Below are positions 10,601 to 35,165 of a stretch of 52,208 nt of DNA, in pieces. The stretch comes from Acidobacteriota bacterium (lineage in GTDB: Bacteria; Acidobacteriota; Thermoanaerobaculia; Multivoradales; Multivoraceae): positions 1 through 52,208 of the forward strand of contig QQVD01000024.1 of the NCBI GenBank assembly GCA_003388555.1, given 5' to 3'. How positions within the stretch are numbered: the first letter of the stretch is position 1; each line of letters starts with the position of its first letter. The position numbers and the translations under genes are program-made. Below the pieces are notes generated by a model. That model saw nothing but the letters and a program-made list of their open reading frames with translations, did no database searches and was not told the origin of the DNA.

Positions 10601-12238
10601 CTACCGAATCCGGGTCGGTCTGCGCCGCACCTCACCCGGCACAATGCGCACCAGGGCGCGGCGCCCGTCGATGGTCAGCTCGGTGAAGCGCAGCAGCGAG
10701 TAGCCGATGATCCCGCCGAAACCGACCCCGCCTCCGCGCGCGTGCCGGTCGAGGTCGAGGATCTTGAGGTTGCGGTGTTCCTGCTGGACGCCGGGGAACA
10801 TCAACGTCACGTCACCGTGAACCTCCGGCACCACCTCGACGGTGCCGGAGAGTCCCTGGATCTGGATCGAGCTCTCGCGCTGATCGACACCGAGCTGGTC
10901 GGCCACCCGCTGCGAGAGGATCGTCGCCCAGGCGCCGGTGTCGAGCAGGAAGTAGGTCTCGACCTTCTCGTCGAGGAGCGCCGGCAGGATCACGTAGTGG
11001 CCGAAGAGGCGTACCGGCGCCCAGCCGGGCTCGAGAGATCGCAGGTCGCGCTCGTAGCGCCAGCGATCGGGCTCGCCGCCGGGCAGCGCCGGGAAGGGCG
11101 GATGGGGCTCGAGGACCATGCGCAGCCGCGGAATGTCGAGCGTGATCAGGAAGTCGTCCCAGAGCCCGTCGATACCCAGAATCGCACCTCCGTGGCTACC
11201 GGTCATCACCTCGTCGTCGACCACTCGCACCAGGCAGTTCTCGTAGACCACGTCACCGGCCGAGATGCGGTCGACACGCGCCACGAACGCCTGGCGAGCC
11301 CCCTCGTCGCCGATGCCGCGTACCACGGTGTCGCGCAGGCGCTCGGCACCGGCCGCCTCGGCCAACGAACGGCTGATCAGCAGTCCGGAGGCCCCGGTGT
11401 CGAGCAGCACCCGCTCCTCGACCGCGCCGCCGAACCGCATCTCGATACCGATCCGATCGTCCCAGCCCGGTCGCGGGCGCAGCTGCCGCAGCGGAATCTC
11501 GTAGCTCCTGCGCGGCGAGGTGAGTGAGCAGTCGCCGCGTTGCTCGAGGAGCTCGGCCAGGCTCTCCGTCGCCACACCCGAGCCCAGCAGCTCACTTGGT
11601 GAAGCTTCGAGGTCGTACCAGCGACCGATCTCGTCGGCCGGCAGCAGCGCCAGCGCCAGATCGCCCGCCCGTGAATCGGTGGCTCGTCGCTCGAGCGCGG
11701 CGCGGAGCTCGCGCTGCGCCGACTGCAACCTGCGCTCGGCCTGGAAGAGTCGCGCCAGGCCGAGGTTGGCGCGGCCGTCCACCGGTGGCAGCGTCGCGCC
11801 CTGGTAGTAGGACTGCCCTGCCAGATTGAAGTCGCCGAGAGCGAGTGCGGCGTCGGCCAGGGTGACGTGACGGAGGCTGGAGCCTGCATCGCTCTCGATC
11901 GCGGCCCGCGCGGCGGAAAGGGCCTCGTCGAGTCGTCCACTGTCGATCAGGCCGTGCACCCGGAGGTGCCCCCACTCGGCACTCGATCGAACCTCGGGCG
12001 GCGCTGAGGCCAGCGTTTCGAGAGCGCCCGCGGCATCGGCCGCGGCCAGACGCGCGCGGGCCAGAGCCAGCGGATCGGCCTGCGGCGCGCCGACCCGGCC
12101 CTCCCGCGTCGAGAGGGGCTGCTGCTGCGCCTCCTGCTCCTGCTGCTGCTCCTGTCCCGAAGCCGGGTGGGCCCCTGCCGCGAGAGACAATGCGACCACC
12201 GTCGCGGCGATCGCGCGACCCCACGTTCTCCTCCTCAT
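10601..12238 (-). CDS. Periplasmic TPR-retropepsin-like aspartyl protease with two DTGA motifs
   Basis: Start ATG at 12238 (545 residues) has AAGGGGGA upstream and begins a signal peptide (AIAATVVALSLAAGAHPASG); an earlier in-frame start adds 24 unlikely residues. After a Gln/Glu-rich linker (30-40), residues 55-210 are alpha-helical TPR-like repeats. Two retropepsin/pepsin-like lobes follow: VLLDTGASGLLIS with Asp280 and FLLDTGAWATILS with Asp433, each with a later hydrophobic-Gly-Ile-Gly strand (ILGID; IIGYS). One polypeptide with two DTGA lobes can form an active site without dimerising, as in pepsins, though each lobe resembles the bacterial single-lobe family. Substrate unknown. It probably shares a transcript with the small membrane protein downstream. 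Confidence 0.85.
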   Translation of the reverse strand: MRRRTWGRAIAATVVALSLAAGAHPASGQEQQQEQEAQQQPLSTREGRVGAPQADPLALARARLAAADAAGALETLASAPPEVRSSAEWGHLRVHGLIDSGRLDEALSAARAAIESDAGSSLRHVTLADAALALGDFNLAGQSYYQGATLPPVDGRANLGLARLFQAERRLQSAQRELRAALERRATDSRAGDLALALLPADEIGRWYDLEASPSELLGSGVATESLAELLEQRGDCSLTSPRRSYEIPLRQLRPRPGWDDRIGIEMRFGGAVEERVLLDTGASGLLISRSLAEAAGAERLRDTVVRGIGDEGARQAFVARVDRISAGDVVYENCLVRVVDDEVMTGSHGGAILGIDGLWDDFLITLDIPRLRMVLEPHPPFPALPGGEPDRWRYERDLRSLEPGWAPVRLFGHYVILPALLDEKVETYFLLDTGAWATILSQRVADQLGVDQRESSIQIQGLSGTVEVVPEVHGDVTLMFPGVQQEHRNLKILDLDRHARGGGVGFGGIIGYSLLRFTELTIDGRRALVRIVPGEVRRRPTRIR

Positions 12239-12252
12239 CTCAGTCCCCCTTC

Positions 12253-12270
12253 GCGAGGCAGGCGCCTCGC
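12253..12270. promoter_or_regulatory. Hairpin immediately upstream of the aspartyl protease start
   Basis: GCGAGGC-AGGC-GCCTCGC: 7-base perfect arms and a 4-base loop, 14-32 bases upstream of the ATG at 12238, directly before its AAGGGGGA ribosome site. It could limit access to the leader or be an operator. It lies in the 325-base divergent gap 12239-12563, where I see nothing else beyond the GGAGG of the next gene. Confidence 0.3.
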
Positions 12271-12563
12271 CGAGTCCTCGTTCCCAGCGCCTTCGGATGA
12301 TAGCGGCCACGCCGCCACGGGCTCACCGCGCTGGCTCAGCAGCGCAACGTCTCGTGGCAGCTCCGTACCGTGGGCCCTCCCAGCGAACGAAGGTCGGGGC
12401 CGGCGCCCTGGCAGGCGCGGTCAAGACGCTGACGCCGTGGATCAAGACCCGCGGACCTTCAGCTCGCTAGCTTGTTCACAGCCATCCGGGACACCGCCAC
12501 CGGTGCCCTGATCGGCCAACGACGAACCAACCGTCACCCCCCAAACAGCCGAGGAGGAAGACC

Positions 12564-15168: not shown

Positions 15169-15410
15169 ATTCCCCGACGCCGAGACCCGACCTCTGCCCC
15201 GTCTGCGGCAGCGACAACGACTGCGGCATGGTGCGCGGCGACGCGCGGTGCTGGTGTTTCGACAGGTCGATACCCGCGGAGGCGCTGGCAGCGATCCCGC
15301 CGTCGGCTCGAGGGACTGTGTGCATCTGCGAACGATGCGCCGGCCGGCGGCAGGACGAGCCCGGGAGCTCCGAACCACCCATGGGGTCGGCGCCGCGACG
15401 CCCTGGCTAG
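15165..15410 (+). CDS. Small cysteine-rich CWC protein
   Basis: 81 residues, ATG at 15165 overlapping the AraC stop as ATGA. It contains CPVCGSDNDCG, then CWCFDRSIP, then CICERCA: eight Cys in a spacing typical of the cysteine-rich CWC family, likely a small zinc- or metal-binding domain. It ends in a disordered acidic/Pro tail. The gene is easily missed because a longer overlapping reading frame covers it. Its TAG stop overlaps the stop of the convergent sortase gene inside a CTAG palindrome, so the two genes share 4 bases and there is no room for a terminator. Role unknown; translational coupling suggests co-expression with the AraC regulator. Confidence 0.8.
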   Translation: MNSPTPRPDLCPVCGSDNDCGMVRGDARCWCFDRSIPAEALAAIPPSARGTVCICERCAGRRQDEPGSSEPPMGSAPRRPG

Positions 15411-16138
15411 CCGTCGATCGGCACGGCCGTCACCACGTAGCGCTGCGGCGCCGGGCCGATCCAGCGGAACGGGTAGCAGGTGATCAGGGTCAGGCGCTCG
15501 TCTTGAGTCGGCGCGAGCACGCTGAGGTCGTCCGGATCGACGACCCGCAGCTCGCTGACGCGATAGCGCCGCTCTTCGCCCGCTCCGAGAGCGGCGAGCC
15601 GGATCTCGTCTCCTGTCTCGACCCTGGCGAGACCGGCGAAGACCGAATCGCGATGGCCGACGACGACGCTGTTCCCGGCCCTGCCCGGCAGTGCGGTCCC
15701 CGGCACGTGGCCGGCCGCGACATCGAGCTGAGCGGCACCCACTCCGGCGCGGATCGAGGCCTCGAAGTCGCGAGCGGGGAACCAGACGCGGCCCAGGAGG
15801 TCGCCCTCTCGGAGTCCCTGTCGCAGCCCGGGGTCGCTACGAAGCCGGGCCTGGACGTTGACACCGTCGCCGTCCTCGCTCGCTGGCTGGGAAGGGCTCG
15901 CGAGCTCTCGCAGGTCGTGCTGCTGAGCCAGTTGACGTTGCCAGACACCCGTCGCGCCGACGGTCAGCAGTGCGAGTCCAGTCGCGAACAGGGCCAGAGC
16001 GAGGAGACGAGCCAGCACCGGGGGCCGGCGTCGCCGCCTGGCGGAACGACCTGAGCGACGAGCGACGGCGACGCGCACGTTACCGAGGCGACGCCGAACG
16101 GGCGCCTGGGCTCTGCGGCTCGTGGTGGTTGGGCTCAT
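15407..16138 (-). CDS. Sortase (class D-like), membrane-anchored
   Basis: 243 residues from ATG at 16138, with GGAGG about 13 bases upstream. An Arg-rich cytoplasmic N-terminus (RRSGRSARRRRRPP) is followed by one transmembrane helix (about 41-62), as in class C/D/E sortases that stay in the inner membrane with the catalytic domain outside. The catalytic triad is visible: His162 in VVVGHRDS, Cys221 in LTLITCYPF, Arg233 in APQRYVV. Sortases cleave an LPXT(G/A)-type signal and join the substrate to an amine acceptor. A candidate substrate with LPQTA is encoded 268 bases upstream on the same strand. In a diderm such systems are uncommon and the acceptor is unknown. Confidence 0.92.
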   Translation of the reverse strand: MSPTTTSRRAQAPVRRRLGNVRVAVARRSGRSARRRRRPPVLARLLALALFATGLALLTVGATGVWQRQLAQQHDLRELASPSQPASEDGDGVNVQARLRSDPGLRQGLREGDLLGRVWFPARDFEASIRAGVGAAQLDVAAGHVPGTALPGRAGNSVVVGHRDSVFAGLARVETGDEIRLAALGAGEERRYRVSELRVVDPDDLSVLAPTQDERLTLITCYPFRWIGPAPQRYVVTAVPIDG

Positions 16139-16271
16139 CGCGGTGCTGTCGCGCCTCCGGTCGTGGCGTCGGGACTCGTTCGAGATCGGAGCCTTCGCGT
16201 GTCTCGGAGGTCGAGCCTGCGCAAGCCCGCCCGCGAGCGAGTCCCTCCGCACGACGGATGCAAATGACATC

Positions 16272-16308
16272 GGGGCGGGCGCACCGCGCGTCTCGGTACG
16301 CCCGCCCC
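16272..16308. terminator. Strong GC hairpin between sortase substrate and sortase genes
   Basis: GGGGCGGGCG (16272-16281) pairs with CGCCCGCCCC (16299-16308), a 10-base perfect stem, with an inner ACCG/CGGT stem closing a 7-base loop. It lies between the stop of the LPQTA gene (16406) and the sortase ATG (16138). No T run on either side. It could end most substrate transcripts, lowering sortase relative to its substrate, or stabilise a processed mRNA end. Confidence 0.5.
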
Positions 16309-16405
16309 TCGTCGGTCCCGGCTGAGGGGATCGCGGCCGCCTCCTCATGGACCGCGATCATCCGCCGGACTCGGCGTCCCGTCGATGGGGACGTCAGAGC
16401 TTGGT

Positions 16406-17053
16406 TCAGCGCACCGCACGCAACGCCAGGGCGCCGAGCAGGGTGAGGAAGCCACCGGCCATTAGGATCAGCGGCAGGTTGCTCGCCGTCTGCGGCAGCT
16501 CGTCGCTGTCGTAGGTCTGGCTCTCGTAGTCCGAGTCGTCCTCGCCGTCGAAGGCGTCGGCGGCCGCGGTCCGGGTCTCGCTCGCGAGCTCACGCGCCTC
16601 GGCGGTCGTCTCGTCCCAGGCCTCCTCGATCTCGTCGCCCGCTTCGGCGATCTCCGCCTCCGCCTCGTTCGCGGCCTCCTCGATCTCGTTCTCGACCTCG
16701 GTGTCACCGCTCATGTCGGCGTTGTCGTTCTCGGCCACGGGACCGGAGTAGGACTCGAGGTAGGTGATCGAGGCCGTACCGGCGTTGAACAGATCCTGGT
16801 CGTACCAGACCTGCACCCGCTCGCCGATCTGCAGCACACCCGAGTAGTCCGCGTCCTGCGGGATCGGGAAGGTGATCACGCCCTCGCTGTGGGTGCGCAG
16901 ATCGAACTGCTGATCTTCCACACGCACCACGTAGCCGACGGCCTGCACGTCGTCCTCGTCGACGCGGTCGGCCCAGGACTCGTTCTGGGCGAAGGCGCCG
17001 GCCGGCACCATCAGCGCGGCGGTGGTCAACATCGTTGTCAGGAAGTTCCTCAT
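16406..17053 (-). CDS. Probable sortase substrate with LPQTA sorting signal
   Basis: 215 residues from ATG at 17053 with AGGAGAA upstream; an earlier in-frame start would put 27 charged residues before the signal peptide. Signal peptide FLTTMLTTAALMVPAGAFA; a mature ~80-residue beta-rich domain (GYVVRVEDQQFDLRT, IGERVQVWYDQ) of OB-like/DUF5666-like appearance; then a Glu/Ala-rich probable coiled coil (about 118-165) and an Asp/Ser stretch. The C-terminus has LPQTA at 186-190 (nt 16484-16498), a hydrophobic segment (193-211) and Arg residues at the end: a complete cell-wall-type sorting signal. The adjacent sortase gene on the same strand supports this. The acidic coiled coil may act as a stalk. 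Confidence 0.85.
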   Translation of the reverse strand: MRNFLTTMLTTAALMVPAGAFAQNESWADRVDEDDVQAVGYVVRVEDQQFDLRTHSEGVITFPIPQDADYSGVLQIGERVQVWYDQDLFNAGTASITYLESYSGPVAENDNADMSGDTEVENEIEEAANEAEAEIAEAGDEIEEAWDETTAEARELASETRTAAADAFDGEDDSDYESQTYDSDELPQTASNLPLILMAGGFLTLLGALALRAVR

Positions 17054-17649: not shown

Positions 17650-20478
17650 TCAAGGGCTGGTCTGGCTCCAGCCACTCACCCCGCCGCTATCGAAGCCGTC
17701 GGCGAACAGCGGCTTCTCCCAGACCACCAGCTCGAGCCCCTCGCCGTTCGGGCCGTGACCCGCTGCCAGCACGCGATCGCCAGAGGCGACGAGATCGAGC
17801 GCCTCACCCTGCACACCTGGCCAGAGCTCCGCGAGGGGCAGGGTGCCGGCCAGCGTGCCATCGGTGGTCCACAGCTCGAAGCCGCGCTCGGGGGTGAAGA
17901 GGGAGAGCACCGCGACGTCGCTGACCTGCGCGCCGCGATAGGGCCGTGGGTTGCTCAGGTGGTTCGGGCGCGAGCCCACCGGTCCGGCCACGACCTCGAG
18001 CAGCCTCGTGCCGGCCACCGTGCCGTCGCTGAACCACGGCTCGGCACCGGTGTCCCCACGAGTGTCCTGCAGCAGCCATCCATCTTGGAGCGGCGCGAGC
18101 AGGTAGAGTCCGTCGGGATCGGCGTCGGGATCGAGCTCGCGAGAGGTCAGCTGGAGGGTGCCGGCGGGCGTGCCGTCGGTGACCACCAGCTCGCGATGGG
18201 TCGAGCCCGCGGCGAGAGTCGAGAGGAGCACCCGACCCTGGCGTGGCGCCGAAGGCGACGCACTCAGGGCGTGAGGCATCTCGAAGTAAAGGCCCCGGGA
18301 GGTGTCGAAGCCGGGCATCAGCTCGAGCGTCCCGGCGGCTGTCCCGTCCGACGCCCACAGGTCGAGAGTGTCTCCGTCGGTGCTCTGGTAGGCGAGGAGC
18401 GCTCTGGTGTCGGCCTCCCCTCCGTCGCACAGCGCATGGATGGCCCAGAATGCGCCGTCCGGAGCCGTCGTCACCAGCTGCGTCCCGAGCGCCGTGCCGT
18501 CGGTGCGCCAAAGCTGGTCGTCGATCAGGAACAACGCGTCGATCCCACAGGAGGCGACGAGGTCGTAGGTGCGTTCGGTGGTCAGCTGCTCGGCGGTCAG
18601 CGCCGTGGGATCGAGCGCCCAAAGCACCCGCTGCCCGCTGGCGTTCTCCGCCTCGGTGAGGACCAGCTCACCGACCGCGTGGAGGCCCCGTGGCTCGGAG
18701 TGGCCCGACTCGTTCAGGTTGATCTGGTGGATGGTCGATCCGTCCCAGACCAGCGGCTCGGACGAGACGATCGAGGACGAGGAGTTCGTCGCGACGAGCC
18801 TCCCGTCGGCTCGCAGCAGGAGATCGCGCGGCTCGTAGGAGTTGGATCCAGGAGCCACGTCGTGGACCAGCCGCACCCCCGAGCGATCGGCGATCCAGAG
18901 CTCGGTACCCAGCTCGGGCGTCGTCGCGGCGAAGGCGAAGGCACCCTGCGAGTCGCCGACCAGGATTTCGGGCCGGGAGGACGACTCTTCCACCGATGCC
19001 GAGAGATCCGTCCACTCTCCCGTGAGCGACGCGGAGCCCAGCACTCCATCCCTCTCGGGATCGAAGCTCGAGACCAGGATGAGGTCTGCGACCCTGGCCA
19101 CGGGAGTCGGAGTGCTTGCTCCCGATCCGGGAACGATGTCGGTGAGCAACGACGTGCCGGCTGCGGTGCCGTCGGAGATCGCAAGCTCCTGACCCTCGTT
19201 CTCGAACAGGGCCCCGAACACGAGGACGTCGCCAAAGGTCCTGAGCCGCGACGGCAGCGATCCCGGCGTCCCCGGATAGAGGTCGGCGACCAGCGAGACG
19301 CCGCCCAGCGGTCCGTAGCGGTACAGCTCGCTGCCGGTGGCGGGATCGGTCCCTGCGAAGTAGACCCGACCCTCCAGAGAGGTCATCGGTCCGCTGACGA
19401 CTCCGTCGCCGCTGCCAGGCATGAGGTCGGTCAGGCGCTGAACCACCGCCGTCGACTCGTGGTACCTCCAGAGCTCGTCTCCGGTCGAGCCGTCGTCTGC
19501 CTGGAAGTAGAGCCTCGTCGAACCCACCGACAGGAGATTCGACGGGTTGGAGCTGTTCGCTCCGGCATTCACGTCGTGGATCTCGAGTGCCCCGGCCTGA
19601 GGATCGAAGACGCCGAGCTCCCGACCCACGTGGTCGAACGTCGCGCGGAACGCCAGCTTGGTTCAGATCCATACGAGCTCGGTCGGATCGGAAGATCCGG
19701 GCCCGTCCAGCAGGTCGCCGACCAGCAAGGTGCCTCCTGGAGTGCCGTCGCTGCGAAAGAGCTCGCGACCCGTCTCCGGGGTCTCGGCGACGAAGAAGAC
19801 GCCGCCGGAAGGGTCCGCGACCAGCTCCTCGGGATCTGATCCTCCGGCGCCATCCACCAGATCGGGAGTGGTGACCGACATGCCGTCCCAGCGCCACAAC
19901 TCTCGGCCCGACTCCGGGGTCTCGGCCGAGAAGTAGATCGCCGCGCCGTCCCACCGGAGATCGCGTGGTTCCGACGAGGCGCTGCCGGGAGCCAGGTCGA
20001 GCACCATCGTGGGGCTCGTCGACGCCAGGAGCGTCGACCAGATCTCGCGACCGTGCTCATGGCTCGTGGCGACGAAGAAGACCTGCTCGCCCACCTGCAG
20101 GAAGTCCCTGGGGCTCGAGGAAGCCGGGCCAGGGTTCAGATCCGCGAAGAGACTCGTGCCGGCGACCGTACCGTCACTGATCCACAGCTCGGCGCCGTGG
20201 GTCTCGTCCGTGGCGGCGAAGAGGAACTCGCCAAGGAGCTCGACCCCCTCGACCTCGTAACGCACGAGATCGCGCACCGGCTCGGGCGTCGTGTTCAGAT
20301 CGACGATCCGGGGATTTGCCAGGAGCGAGGTCGGTGCGGAGGTCGACAGCGTGCAGGCGAGCACCAGGCTGAGGAGCGGCGCCTGCCACGAGGAGATCTT
20401 CCCGCTTCGTTCTATGGTCCGCGACTGCGGGCATCTCTGGGGCGGCTCCCGGTGACTGCGGTGACTACGGCGACACAC
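17650..20478 (-). pseudogene. ELWxxDGT-repeat secreted protein interrupted by one in-frame TGA
   Basis: One continuous frame runs from GTG at 20478 (GGAGG 9 bases upstream) to a stop at 17650, broken only by TGA at 19663-19665. The 271-codon front part has a signal peptide (APLLSLVLACTLSTSAPTSLLA) and repeats such as LWISDGTVAGT, LWRWDGM, LFRSDGTPGGT. The ~660-residue back part continues with LWRTDGTALGT, LWASDGTAAGT, LWTTDGTLAGT and ends LFADGFDSGGVSGWSQTSP, the shared tail. Around the stop the reading is ELVWI-stop-TKLAFRATFDHVGREL; in this repeat a Gly before T/S-K-L would fit, so GGA to TGA is a likely single change. A sequencing error, recent inactivation or readthrough are all possible. 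The start overlaps the upstream beta-helix gene by 14 bases. Confidence 0.8.
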
Positions 20479-21940
20479 TGGACCAGGCCTCCGTGGTTCC
20501 ACTCTCGAAGTCGTCGGCGAACAGCGGCGTCTCGGGCACCGGCGGGCCGGTGGCGCCGAACTCGGTCGAGCCGATGTCGCAGCCGTCGTCGAGGTCCGGA
20601 GCCGTGGCGATGTCGACCACGCGGGTCCCGCCGCCGGTGAAGCCACGCTGGTCCGCGTCGTCGAGCGGGCACGAGCCCTGGTCGATCACGGGGCTGGCGG
20701 CGAGCGGCAGCCGCGTCTCGGTCGCTCCCCCGTTTTGGGCGAGCGGTCCGAGCTGGGGATCCAGAGGTGCCGCCCCAGAGCCGACGAAGTCGTTGCCGAT
20801 GTTGGGGAACCCGAGCGGGAACTCGGATTCGACGCAGGCGTGGTCGGAGATCCAGTTGAAGCCTTCGCTCTCGATCGAGCCGGGCGACGCGATCGCCAGG
20901 TTCCTGCACACCGTCCCGGTGAGACCCAGATCGTCGTTGCCGGCGATCACGCTGTTGGTCAGGGCGAGCGGCTCGGACCCGAGCAGAGCCAGCGCCCCTC
21001 CATCCCCGATCCCGTCGGCGTCCGAATCCGCCACGTTCCCTGTCAGCGTCGAGGAGCGCAGAACGAAGTCCGCGATCACCGAGCCCGCCGAGATCGCTCC
21101 ACCCGACGACGCGGAGCGGTTGTCGTGGAAGGTCGAGCGCACCACCGCGAGCTGGAAGTTCGACGAGGACGAGACCGCTCCTCCGTTCCCCGTCGCCTCG
21201 TTGCCGGAGAAGGTCGAGTCCGAGATCTCCAGGATGCCGTTGGTGGTGGCGATCGCCCCACCGATGCCGCCGGAGGTGTTGCCCAGGAAGGCGGTCTCCT
21301 GGATGTACAGCTGGTAGAGGTTCGGGATCGAGATCGCGCCGCCGCGCGAGGTCGCGTGGTTGTCGTCGAACTGCGACCGGACGATCTCCACCAGCCGCCC
21401 ACCGCCGGCTCGCAACGCACCGCCCTCGCTCGCCGAGCCACCGGTGAACCGCAGGTCCTCGAGGCGCAGCAACTCGGAGTCTCCGCCGTCGCACTCGAGG
21501 ATGCCGGAGGTCGAGCCGACGATGATCGAGTGGTCGATCCCCAGGCCGCGTAGCACCGTGCCGCCGGTGATCTCCGGCAGCAGCGAGCCAAGGGTGATCG
21601 TGCCGGGCACGGTGAGCTCGATCTCGTCGACGAAGCCCCCGCCCGCAGGGCAGTCGAGGTACGCCGCATCGTCGTTCGCCGCCACGATCGCCTCGCGCAG
21701 GGAGCACTCTCCGTCCGCGGCCTCGAGGTCGGACAGGGTGTCCACCTGGATGACGTCGCCGAGCGCTCCGCCCGCGAGAGCCGTGAGAGCGAGCCATCCG
21801 GTCGCCCAGACGACGAAGGGCCAGGATCTCGGCGCCACCCACTGGCCCCGCCGGATCCCCGCTCGCGCTCGTTCCCTGTCGCGGTCACCTCGCTCTCGTT
21901 CCGGCGCAGTCGCCACCTCCGGTCGCTTCGCTCTCCTCAT
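20465..21940 (-). CDS. CSLREA-domain secreted beta-helix protein with C-terminal tail
   Basis: 491 residues from ATG at 21940, preceded by GAGGAGGGATCAGGCG. An Arg-rich n-region, then signal sequence FVVWATGWLALTALAGGALG. Right after it is a CSLREA-type domain (IQVDTLSDLEAADGECSLRE, followed by AIVAAND), which marks the start of many secreted beta-helix proteins. The rest has Asn/Gly ladder repeats (FDDNHATSRGGAIS, FSGNEATGNGGAVS, LTGNVADSDADG) typical of polymorphic outer-membrane-like helices. Ends LFADDFESGTTEAWSSVSP. The stop overlaps the start region of the broken ELWxxDGT gene downstream, so they are probably co-transcribed. Confidence 0.88.
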   Translation of the reverse strand: MRRAKRPEVATAPERERGDRDRERARAGIRRGQWVAPRSWPFVVWATGWLALTALAGGALGDVIQVDTLSDLEAADGECSLREAIVAANDDAAYLDCPAGGGFVDEIELTVPGTITLGSLLPEITGGTVLRGLGIDHSIIVGSTSGILECDGGDSELLRLEDLRFTGGSASEGGALRAGGGRLVEIVRSQFDDNHATSRGGAISIPNLYQLYIQETAFLGNTSGGIGGAIATTNGILEISDSTFSGNEATGNGGAVSSSSNFQLAVVRSTFHDNRSASSGGAISAGSVIADFVLRSSTLTGNVADSDADGIGDGGALALLGSEPLALTNSVIAGNDDLGLTGTVCRNLAIASPGSIESEGFNWISDHACVESEFPLGFPNIGNDFVGSGAAPLDPQLGPLAQNGGATETRLPLAASPVIDQGSCPLDDADQRGFTGGGTRVVDIATAPDLDDGCDIGSTEFGATGPPVPETPLFADDFESGTTEAWSSVSP

Positions 21941-32716: not shown

Positions 32717-32834
32717 CCCTCACACACTGAGCCGAGAGCGCCCCGCCTGACTCGGAGGGCCCTGCTCCGCCATCTCCCGGTTTCCTCTTGCCGGGCTCGC
32801 GTGTCCCACCTCCCGAGTGAAAGGAGTGCGGGAG

Positions 32835-35165
32835 ATGAGTCCACAGAGCGAGCGCAGGGAGCGTGCGGAGACATCGGCGGTCCGAGGGTTCCTCTCTCGC
32901 TTCGCCGCCGATCCGAGGCACTTCCAGATCAGCGTGCTCGGCACGCTGCTGGTGGTCGGCATCGCCCGGCTCGGATTCCCGGTCGATGCCTCCGACGTCG
33001 CCGCCGCGATGGCCTCGGCGCTCGCCACCGAGCTGCTGGTGGCGCGGCTGCGCGGCAAGCTCTTCGACCCGCGCTCTCCGTTCATCTCGAGCCTGTCGCT
33101 CTCACTGCTGCTGCGCGCCTCGTCTCCCTGGGTCTACGCCTTCGCCGGCGCCGCGGCGATCGGCGGCAAGGCATTGCTGCGGGTGCGCGGCAAGCACCTC
33201 TACAACCCGGCGGCGCTCGGCATCGCCGCCGCGGTGCTGCTCACCGACCGGGCCTGGATCTCGCCGGGCCAGTGGGGCAGCGGGCCGCTGCTGCTGTTCC
33301 TGTTCGCCTGCGCCGGCGGCATGGTGGTGCACCGCGCGCTGCGCTCGGACGTCAGCTGGATCTTCCTGGTCAGCTACGCCGCGCTCGCCCTGGGGCGAGC
33401 CGCGTGGCTCGGTGATCCCTGGGTGGTGCCGCTGCACGGCCTGCAGAGCGGCGCCTTCCTGCTCTTCGCCTTCTTCATGGTCTCCGATCCGAAGACCACC
33501 CCCGACGCGCGGCCGGCCCGGATCGGCTACGCGATCTGTGTCGCCGGCGGCGCCGCCTGGGTGCACTTCGGCCTGCACCAACCCAACGGCTTCCTCTGGT
33601 CACTGCTGGCCCTGGCGCCGATCGTGCCGCTCCTCGACCTGCTGGCGCCCGGCGCCCGCTACCGCTGGGGGCAGCGCCCCGGCAGCCCGACTCACCCACC
33701 GATCCCGACCGTGAACCCACGCGAAAGGAACCCTGCCATGACTCCCAACCCCGCCAACGCGGCAGCAGCCGCAGTCACCCGGACGGCGTCGAGCGCGCCG
33801 CGCCGCGTCGCCGCCGCGACCCTGTTCTGCATCACCGCTCTGCTCGCACTGGTCGCTTCGCGTGCCGACGCCTTCTGCGGCTTCTACGTCGCCAAGGCCG
33901 ACACCCAGCTGTTCAACCGCGCCTCGCAGGTGGTGCTGGTGCGCGACGGAGAGCGCACCGTGGTGACCATGGCGAGCGACTACCAGGGCGACCCCGAGGA
34001 GTTCGCGCTGGTCGTTCCGGTGCCGAGCGTGCTCTCGCGCGAGCAGATCCACGTCGCCGAGCAGGCGGTCATCGACCACCTCGACGCCTACACCGCGCCG
34101 CGCCTGGTCGAGTACCACGATCCCGACCCCTGCATGCGCTACGAGCTGCGCCGCATGAAGGCGAGCGCCACCCCACTCCCCGAATCCGTGTCCGAGCTCG
34201 GGTCCCTCGGTGGCGCCGACCTCGGTGTGCGCATCGAGGCGAAGTACACCGTCGGCGAGTACGACATCCTGATCCTCTCCGCCGAGCAGAGCGACGGCCT
34301 CGAGACCTGGCTGCGACGCAGCGGCTACCGCATCCCCGACGGCGCCTCGCGGGTGCTCGGCAGCTACCTGCGTCAGGGCATGCGCTTCTTCGTCGCCAAG
34401 GTGAACCTCGAGCAGCAGCGCTCGCTCGGCGTGGTGAACCTGCGGCCGATCCAGATGGCGTTCGAGACGCCGAAGTTCGGCCTGCCGATCCGCCTCGGCA
34501 CGGTGAACTCGAGCGGCACCCAGGAGATGTTCGTCTACACCCTCACCCGCAGGGGCCGGGTGGAGACGGTCAACTACCGCACCGTGCGCCTGCCCACCGA
34601 CGCCGAGATCCCGCCGTTCGTGGAGCAGCGCTTTGGCGACTTCTACCGCGACCTCTTCGATCGCCAGGTCGAGGAGAACCGACGCGGCGTGTTCCTCGAG
34701 TACGCCTGGGACATGGCGTGGTGCGACCCGTGCGCCGCCGACCCTCTGTCGGTGAGCGAGCTGCGCGACCTCGGCGTGTTCTGGATCGACGATCCAGGGT
34801 TCGCCCCGTCGCGTCAGGGCAGCCAGGCGCGCGACGTCTTCGTCACCCGCCTGCACGTGCGCTACGACGGCGAGCACTTCCCCGAGGACCTGCGCTTCCA
34901 GGAGACCGCCGACCGCTCCAACTTCCAGGGCCGCTTCGTGATGCGTCAGCCCTGGACCGGCTCTCCCAGCGCCTGCCCCGCCGCGCGGGAGTATTTTCGT
35001 GGGCTGCGCGAGCGCCAGGAGCGCGAGGCCCAGACCCTCGCCCGCCTCACCGGTTGGGATCTGGCGGACATCCGGGCGCAGATCCCGGGCCTGGGCGCGA
35101 GATCCGAAGAGGAGCCGGACGTGCCGTGGTGGAAGCGACTGTGGCCAGGAGACCGGGGACGCTGA
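32835..35165 (+). CDS. Fusion: RnfD/NqrB-like membrane protein joined to DUF2330 secreted domain
   Basis: 776 residues from ATG at 32835 (AAAGGAG 9 bases upstream). Residues 1-~285 are a multi-span membrane protein of the RnfD/NqrB/NQR2 family (HLYNPAALGIAAAVLLTDRA, FLLFAFFMVSDPKTTP), about nine hydrophobic segments; the family carries flavin-linked electron transfer in Rnf/Nqr complexes, but no other rnf/nqr genes are here. From Met302 a second protein begins, with its own signal-like stretch (AAATLFCITALLALVASRADAF) and DUF2330 sequence (CGFYVAKADTQLFNRASQVV, FALVVPVPSVLSREQI). No stop separates them. DUF2330 proteins are often encoded next to RnfD-like ones. It may be a true fusion or two genes joined by a small frameshift; a TGA lies one base out of frame just before Met302. 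Confidence 0.8.
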   Translation: MSPQSERRERAETSAVRGFLSRFAADPRHFQISVLGTLLVVGIARLGFPVDASDVAAAMASALATELLVARLRGKLFDPRSPFISSLSLSLLLRASSPWVYAFAGAAAIGGKALLRVRGKHLYNPAALGIAAAVLLTDRAWISPGQWGSGPLLLFLFACAGGMVVHRALRSDVSWIFLVSYAALALGRAAWLGDPWVVPLHGLQSGAFLLFAFFMVSDPKTTPDARPARIGYAICVAGGAAWVHFGLHQPNGFLWSLLALAPIVPLLDLLAPGARYRWGQRPGSPTHPPIPTVNPRERNPAMTPNPANAAAAAVTRTASSAPRRVAAATLFCITALLALVASRADAFCGFYVAKADTQLFNRASQVVLVRDGERTVVTMASDYQGDPEEFALVVPVPSVLSREQIHVAEQAVIDHLDAYTAPRLVEYHDPDPCMRYELRRMKASATPLPESVSELGSLGGADLGVRIEAKYTVGEYDILILSAEQSDGLETWLRRSGYRIPDGASRVLGSYLRQGMRFFVAKVNLEQQRSLGVVNLRPIQMAFETPKFGLPIRLGTVNSSGTQEMFVYTLTRRGRVETVNYRTVRLPTDAEIPPFVEQRFGDFYRDLFDRQVEENRRGVFLEYAWDMAWCDPCAADPLSVSELRDLGVFWIDDPGFAPSRQGSQARDVFVTRLHVRYDGEHFPEDLRFQETADRSNFQGRFVMRQPWTGSPSACPAAREYFRGLRERQEREAQTLARLTGWDLADIRAQIPGLGARSEEEPDVPWWKRLWPGDRGR
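33724..33740 (+). promoter_or_regulatory. Internal ribosome site and ATG for the DUF2330 part
   Basis: AAAGGAA followed after 7 bases by ATG at 33738, in frame inside the fused gene and exactly where the DUF2330 signal-peptide sequence begins. It indicates that the DUF2330 protein is, or recently was, translated separately. Confidence 0.6.

Follow-up and report, generated by a model that had tools for sequence, protein, structure and literature searches.

What could a sortase attach its substrate to in a diderm bacterium, where the outer membrane covers the cell wall? Monoderm bacteria use such enzymes to fix proteins to their wall. The question is raised by two adjacent minus-strand genes, one for a sortase and one for an acidic protein that ends in an LPQTA sorting signal, within a 52,208-nucleotide stretch of acidobacterial DNA (the window, meaning the whole stretch that was analysed). 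The reading favoured here, with a probability of roughly 0.6, is a two-gene cell-envelope anchoring module whose substrate would be joined to the meso-diaminopimelate (mDAP) of periplasmic peptidoglycan. The host genome (phylum Acidobacteriota; 6.8 Mb in 74 contigs, 98.8% complete) is diderm: it contains LptD, above cut-off, and a LolA-like protein encoded on the window's own contig, in agreement with the setting that an earlier sequence-only reading had proposed. Its MurE carries DNPR, which we take to be the signature of mDAP-type ligases.

The sortase gene and its neighbour

The two genes and their parts are as follows.

15407..16348, minus strand: class D-like sortase gene (313-aa ORF; an alternative ATG start at 16138 gives 243 aa)
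15440..15442, minus strand: codon of sortase catalytic Arg233 (invariant alignment column)
15476..15478, minus strand: codon of sortase catalytic Cys221 (invariant column; rows chosen by a Cys-containing motif)
15653..15655, minus strand: codon of sortase catalytic His162 (invariant alignment column)
15950..16018, minus strand: sortase membrane anchor at roughly residues 41-63 (243-aa form; hydrophobic stretch within a modelled helix, 41-80)
16272..16308, minus strand: GC hairpin of 15 pairs, between the substrate and the short-form sortase
16406..17053, minus strand: substrate gene, 215 aa, stop included (ORF; a homologue adjoins a homologous sortase in genome G051)
16409..16498, minus strand: C-terminal sorting signal, LPQTASN-hydrophobic-R, residues 186-215 (E 3.1e-8 to the signal profile)
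16499..16741, minus strand: acidic stalk, about residues 105-185 (composition; low-confidence helix 117-168)
16742..16948, minus strand: DUF5666-like small domain, about residues 36-104 (alignment A5)
16988..17053, minus strand: predicted signal peptide, about residues 1-22 (AxA rule, read from the sequence)

The product of 15407-16348 (minus strand) is a membrane-anchored sortase, as the earlier reading held. It is matched by Pfam Sortase at E 3.9e-26 and combines this domain with the His/Cys/Arg triad, the two features that define the superfamily. The triad residues H162, C221 and R233, numbered on the 243-aa form (start 16138), show no variation across alignments A1 (16 rows) and A3 (40 rows); since the rows were selected by motif (TCxPF for A1, motifs around Cys and His for A3), the invariance of the Cys is partly circular, that of His and Arg less so in A1, and a relative with Cys replaced by Ser (locus L022) is absent from A1 because the motif demands the Cys. 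In the AlphaFold2 model (mean pLDDT 85.2) a long helix, residues 41-80, precedes the catalytic domain.

On the minus strand the substrate comes first and the sortase follows with nothing between them. The gap is 57 bp when counted to the long sortase ORF and 267 bp when counted to the short form; an additional VWA gene at this locus was considered and rejected. A 75-nt stretch containing the hairpin folds at -45.2 kcal/mol (z -5.1; shuffling gives a mean of 0.6 expected terminator-like sites), and the hairpin might act as an attenuator that lowers sortase expression relative to the substrate. With translation of the sortase beginning at 16348, however, the hairpin would sit within its coding region. 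At the sister locus in G051 (L009), the sole start codon upstream of the sortase membrane helix lies at 1492 and the last codon of the substrate at 1489, so that the sortase start directly abuts the substrate and there is no gap like that of the window. Elsewhere in the window, an ELWxxDGT-repeat sequence at 17650-20646 (minus strand) appears split into ORFs 17650-19629 and 19663-20646, perhaps through a frameshift or an assembly error; the protein of 10601-12310 (minus strand) has a TPR match and two stretches that resemble retropepsin-type aspartyl proteases, and a single open frame at 32817-35165 (plus strand) matches both NQR2/RnfD/RnfE and DUF2330.

The substrate protein carries LPQTA at residues 186-190, followed by a hydrophobic stretch and a terminal Arg. 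Residues 24-189 (166 aa) contain 48 Asp/Glu, 6 Arg and neither Lys nor Cys, giving a net charge of -42 that fits the acidic stalk described earlier; Q23 would also be retained if signal peptidase cleaves after AFA. The 'OB-like' domain of the sequence-only reading fared less clearly. Residues 24-102, the basis for calling a domain here, are 41% identical to a secreted paralogue on contig C3 of the same genome; this paralogue matches DUF5666 (PF18914) at E 3.7e-4, under the Pfam cut-off, and Pfam finds no domain in the N-terminal region of the window's own protein. No C-terminal sorting signal was found in the C3 paralogue. Structure prediction of the substrate yielded no usable fold (pLDDT 42), with only the low-confidence helix at 117-168 in the stalk that the sequence-only reading had taken for a coiled coil.

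Assignment to a sortase class

The best profile for the window sortase is NF058671 (class D, LPxTATN-specific), at 123 bits against a cut-off of 140. The enzyme also scores below the cut-offs of the class D profile NF033746 (110 of 165 bits) and the class GN profile TIGR03784 (85.9 of 158.25 bits), and reaches 60.8 of 160 bits with the class C profile. NF058671 is the top family for all eight control sortases as well; the three Bacillota controls all pass it (201, 158 and 199 bits) and two of them pass NF033746, the sortases of L042 and of the Woeseiaceae locus L078 pass NF058671 only, and those of L009, L011 and contig C29 of the host genome stay below both cut-offs. The first PDB sequence matches are 2ln7 (titled SrtD, Bacillus anthracis) and 4d70 (Sortase D5, Clostridium perfringens). 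Class D is thus the best-scoring class both by profile and by solved-structure sequences, and the LPXTA-type substrate expected beside a class D enzyme adjoins it here. The corresponding signal profile NF058670 (LPxTATN; 32-bit cut-off) is not reached, with 18.4 bits on the protein and 21.3 bits in a search of the host genome, in which the window is the single match at E<0.01. In structure comparison, classes C, F, D, E and A have their top rows at Z 20.4-19.2, and class choice by Foldseek and VIA-align was dropped, the classes not being separated. On the tree, Bacillota class D sortases are nested among acidobacterial ones, with weak support (0.316) at the node that joins the window's clade. 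The class D leaning proposed earlier is therefore kept in the form 'class D-like', because the NCBIfam cut-offs are missed and both structure and deep tree support are indecisive.

Linkage of sortase and sorting signal

The host genome has three sortases, namely those of the window, C29 and C9. With a 40-row signal profile (A2), the window signal is found at 3.1e-8 and the C29 signal at 3.9e-7, both values being flattering because the two sequences belong to A2, and the next best match lies at 0.42; these two are the only signals at E<1e-6. Each adjoins its own class D-like sortase, with 373 and 592 bp between the signal and sortase matches. A raw LPxTA pattern in the DNA gave background only (365 genome matches versus 471 for a reversed control) and was discarded. 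The C9 sortase (L122) passes the class GN cut-off of TIGR03784 (170 of 158.25 bits), and the protein adjoining it passes TIGR03788, marine_srt_targ (697 of 552 bits).

Among 60 related genomes, the host counted, 17 contain a sortase match. Twelve of these have a Cys-bearing class D-like enzyme; the sortases of G034, G047, G052 and G057 group with the class GN enzyme on the tree. At E<1e-6 the signal occurs in exactly the 12 Cys-bearing class D-like genomes and in 0 of the other 48 (Fisher p 7e-13, kinship ignored), a test that is partly circular because A2 contains signals from most of these genomes; the G039 signal, whose locus lies outside A2, is matched at 9.5e-8. Weaker matches (4e-4 to 4e-3) in G034, G050 and G053 lack the LPxTA part, since their alignments start at profile position 6-8. 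The catalytic Cys that the earlier reading expected in sister sortases is thus present in every signal-bearing genome. In G032, the sortase relative at L022 1378-2079 (minus strand) has Ser in place of the Cys (TSFPF), and no sorting signal was found in that genome; judged by its residues, this would be a natural inactive case.

Conservation of the pair in relatives, also put forward earlier as a check, is seen in G051, which belongs to a different family of the order; its sortase and the window's are sisters on the tree (support 0.961). Substrate homologues were found in only 2 of the 72 genomes of the order, the host included. G027 has two signals and G035 three, with one matched sortase each. 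On contig C355 of G035, two adjacent LPxTGS proteins (L143, L147), one of them very Thr/Gly-rich, lie apart from the genome's only matched sortase, which is on a different contig.

Across 297 Acidobacteriota genomes, a sortase match (E<=1e-10, class GN-like enzymes included) was found in 59 and a signal (E<=1e-5) in 38, so diderm sortase systems are not as few as had been stated. The sortase and signal counts were taken as one draw, given equal genome numbers and matching handles where listed. A sortase match accompanies the signal in all 38, and no signal occurs in the 238 genomes that have no sortase match (p ~3e-33, kinship ignored). This test is much less circular than that on 60 genomes; some phylum genomes may be conspecific with A2 rows, and some matches were possibly missed because only part of the first-look candidates was scored (per genome at most 10 in the sortase and 27 in the signal search). 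Of 52 signals, the host genome's two counted, 42 have a sortase no more than 3.5 kb away (same strand in 41), and 10 are far from any matched sortase. At E<=1e-5, 21 of the 59 sortase-bearing genomes lack a signal; nine of these have weak sortase matches only (best E 1e-30 to 1e-39). The other 12, for example G190, G300 and G314, show strong sortase matches (E<1e-45); in these the signal may have diverged, may have been missed through the limited candidate scoring, or may be truly absent.

A strict rule of one sortase to one substrate is rejected by G027, G035, the distant signals and the signal-less sortase genomes. The 'dedicated pair' of the sequence-only reading consequently holds one-to-one in the host genome and not for the 10 of 52 phylum signals that lie away from a matched sortase. 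Row selection, the signal-less genomes and partial candidate scoring touch strict coupling, not the window pair itself.

Sorting motif and cargo in related loci

Of 425 confirmed loci in named relatives, the best 80 were compared; most of them carry an Acidobacteriota label, eight are from Bacillota and a few have proteobacterial labels. In 64 of the 80, a protein with an LPxT[AGS]-hydrophobic-basic C-terminus is encoded, always on the sortase strand, against 0, 2, 0, 1 and 0 for five scrambled motifs as chance control, in support of the LPQTA-hydrophobic-Arg end described earlier. Seven of the remaining 16 encode a commonest-type substrate with a variant or longer tail; in nine of the best 80, the motif scan and the commonest substrate profile detected no substrate; in L035, L107 and others the sortase lies close to a contig end. 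Among the 56 commonest-type substrates, 51 end in LPxT[AGS], three in MPxTAS, one in LPxTDS and one in none of these, so the loss of the motif that would have refuted the earlier reading is not seen. Among 76 distinct signals, Ala fills position 5 in 64 and Ser fills position 6 in 62; the wider motif is therefore LPxTAS, an extension of the LPXTA named originally. LPxTAS proteins also adjoin sortases in a Woeseiaceae MAG (L078) and a Gammaproteobacteria MAG (L098). In 38 of the best 80 loci (within L033-L112, for example L042 2982-5603), a substrate, a VWA gene and a sortase follow one another on one strand. Ten loci seeded the commonest-substrate and VWA profiles, and the one VWA protein tested, that of L042, passes TIGR03436 (223 of 81 bits).

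The C29 sortase clusters with those of G039 and G055 on the tree (support 0.896). The substrates of this clade (L001 on C29, L019 in G039, L023 in G055) have 65-79 residues, a net charge of -12 to -25, no Lys and no recognised folded domain. Other substrates of the order include Pro/Ala-rich or Thr/Gly-rich proteins. G035 (same order) and a Thermoanaerobaculia MAG (L108) share one substrate tail, and the host belongs to the order of that MAG. With DUF5666-like, short acidic and Pro/Ala- or Thr/Gly-rich cargoes side by side, the cargo varies and the signal and enzyme remain constant.

Proposed function and alternative readings

In the anchoring module proposed, Sec would export the substrate, and its C-terminal hydrophobic tail would hold it in the inner membrane, where the catalytic domain of the neighbouring sortase would face the periplasm. 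The sortase would cut LPQT/ASN between T189 and A190, a thioacyl intermediate would form on C221, and the protein would be passed to the side-chain amine of mDAP, either in lipid II or in peptidoglycan. What results would be a polyanionic stalk (net about -42) bound to periplasmic peptidoglycan, with the DUF5666-like domain towards the free N-terminus. We infer this acceptor by carry-over from a monoderm: B. anthracis SrtC cleaves the T-A bond of LPNTA, with m-Dpm serving as the acceptor (PMC3297441), and this enzyme is assigned to class D (PMC12445088). Because SrtC uses m-Dpm and the MurE here is of the mDAP type, periplasmic attachment is the simplest reading. It draws further on the sortase domain, triad and fold, on the linkage in the host, its relatives and the phylum, and on the diderm genome; the missed class D cut-offs, the 21 of 59 sortase genomes that show no signal, the rarity of the substrate in the order and the partial circularity of the 60-genome test count against it. 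In one clade the cargo is just a 65-79-residue acidic peptide with no recognised domain, so the function may lie in the polyanion as such.

The enzyme could instead act as a protease only, in the manner of rhombosortase or myxosortase, freeing the protein from the inner membrane through hydrolysis or transfer to a small amine, so that it would travel to the periplasm or outer membrane. Tripartite C-terminal signals of other diderms are reportedly processed by such membrane proteases, and the nucleophile that resolves the intermediate is left free by the present data. We regard this reading as unlikely, with about one chance in five or slightly better, as the protein has a sortase domain and fold rather than an intramembrane-protease fold, and the LPXTA sortase of PMC3297441 transfers to m-Dpm. 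More doubtful still is a route to the outer-membrane surface with anchoring to another acceptor there. The VWA gene added in 38 of the best 80 loci and the Pro/Ala- or Thr/Gly-rich stretches of some order substrates, frequent in surface proteins, would suit it; the window pair has no gene in between, its flanking genes that were examined carry no export label, and a sortase seated in the inner membrane would have its active domain on the periplasmic side. A pilus-like polymer, in which the sortase would link substrate copies through lysines, is very improbable: class C (pilin) structures do rank with the top matches of the structure search, but the class C profile score is low, and Lys is absent from residues 24-189 and from the mature C29 substrate. 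That absence was rejected as a sign of selection, as Lys makes up 0.5% of nine nearby ORFs (P ~0.42) and its scarcity is not unusual here; the G051 homologue has three lysines. A chance neighbourhood or binning artefact, conceivable in a draft of 74 contigs, is highly improbable given the same pair in G051, the phylum-wide linkage and the LolA-like gene on the same contig.

Relation to known systems and wider meaning

The proposed periplasmic anchoring module resembles the class D/LPXTA systems of Bacillota (B. anthracis SrtC with BasH/BasI; B. cellulosilyticus) in its LPxTA-type signal, acidic linker, adjacency and best profile, NF058671. In those systems the motif follows a negatively charged linker, and the gene for sortase D frequently neighbours that of its presumed substrate (PMC3617157). 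The module differs from them in its diderm host, LPxTAS in place of LPxTAT[NST], one to few signals per genome, a small DUF5666-like or disordered acidic cargo and a window sortase under the curated cut-offs. With the class GN/marine proteobacterial target system (TIGR03784/TIGR03788) it shares a sortase that adjoins its target in a diderm, C9 being the example from the same genome; unlike class GN, the window sortase belongs to a separate tree clade and misses the TIGR03784 cut-off, and the VWA-bearing protein of class GN is the target itself, in contrast to the substrate-VWA-sortase loci. L,D-transpeptidases covalently link Lpp and outer-membrane proteins to meso-Dpm in diderms (PMC8263019). 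The covalent protein-meso-Dpm link, here proposed, and the diderm host are common to both, whereas the enzyme is another one, the C-terminal Thr of the processed protein would be joined, and a tie to the outer membrane is not part of the evidence. As for acidobacterial sortases, a table of the Solibacter usitatus genome paper has the row 'Sortase 6 1 6.0' (PMC3174227), and no study of the sortases treated here appears among the literature matches listed.

In this diderm phylum the sortase, the signal and the link between the two turn up repeatedly. Tentatively, at somewhat less than even odds, this would amount to a phylum-wide class D-like branch that places acidic stalks on thin periplasmic peptidoglycan via mDAP, a diderm route distinct from the L,D-transpeptidases. 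The phylum-wide recurrence makes it testable what a sortase attaches its substrates to where an outer membrane covers the wall.
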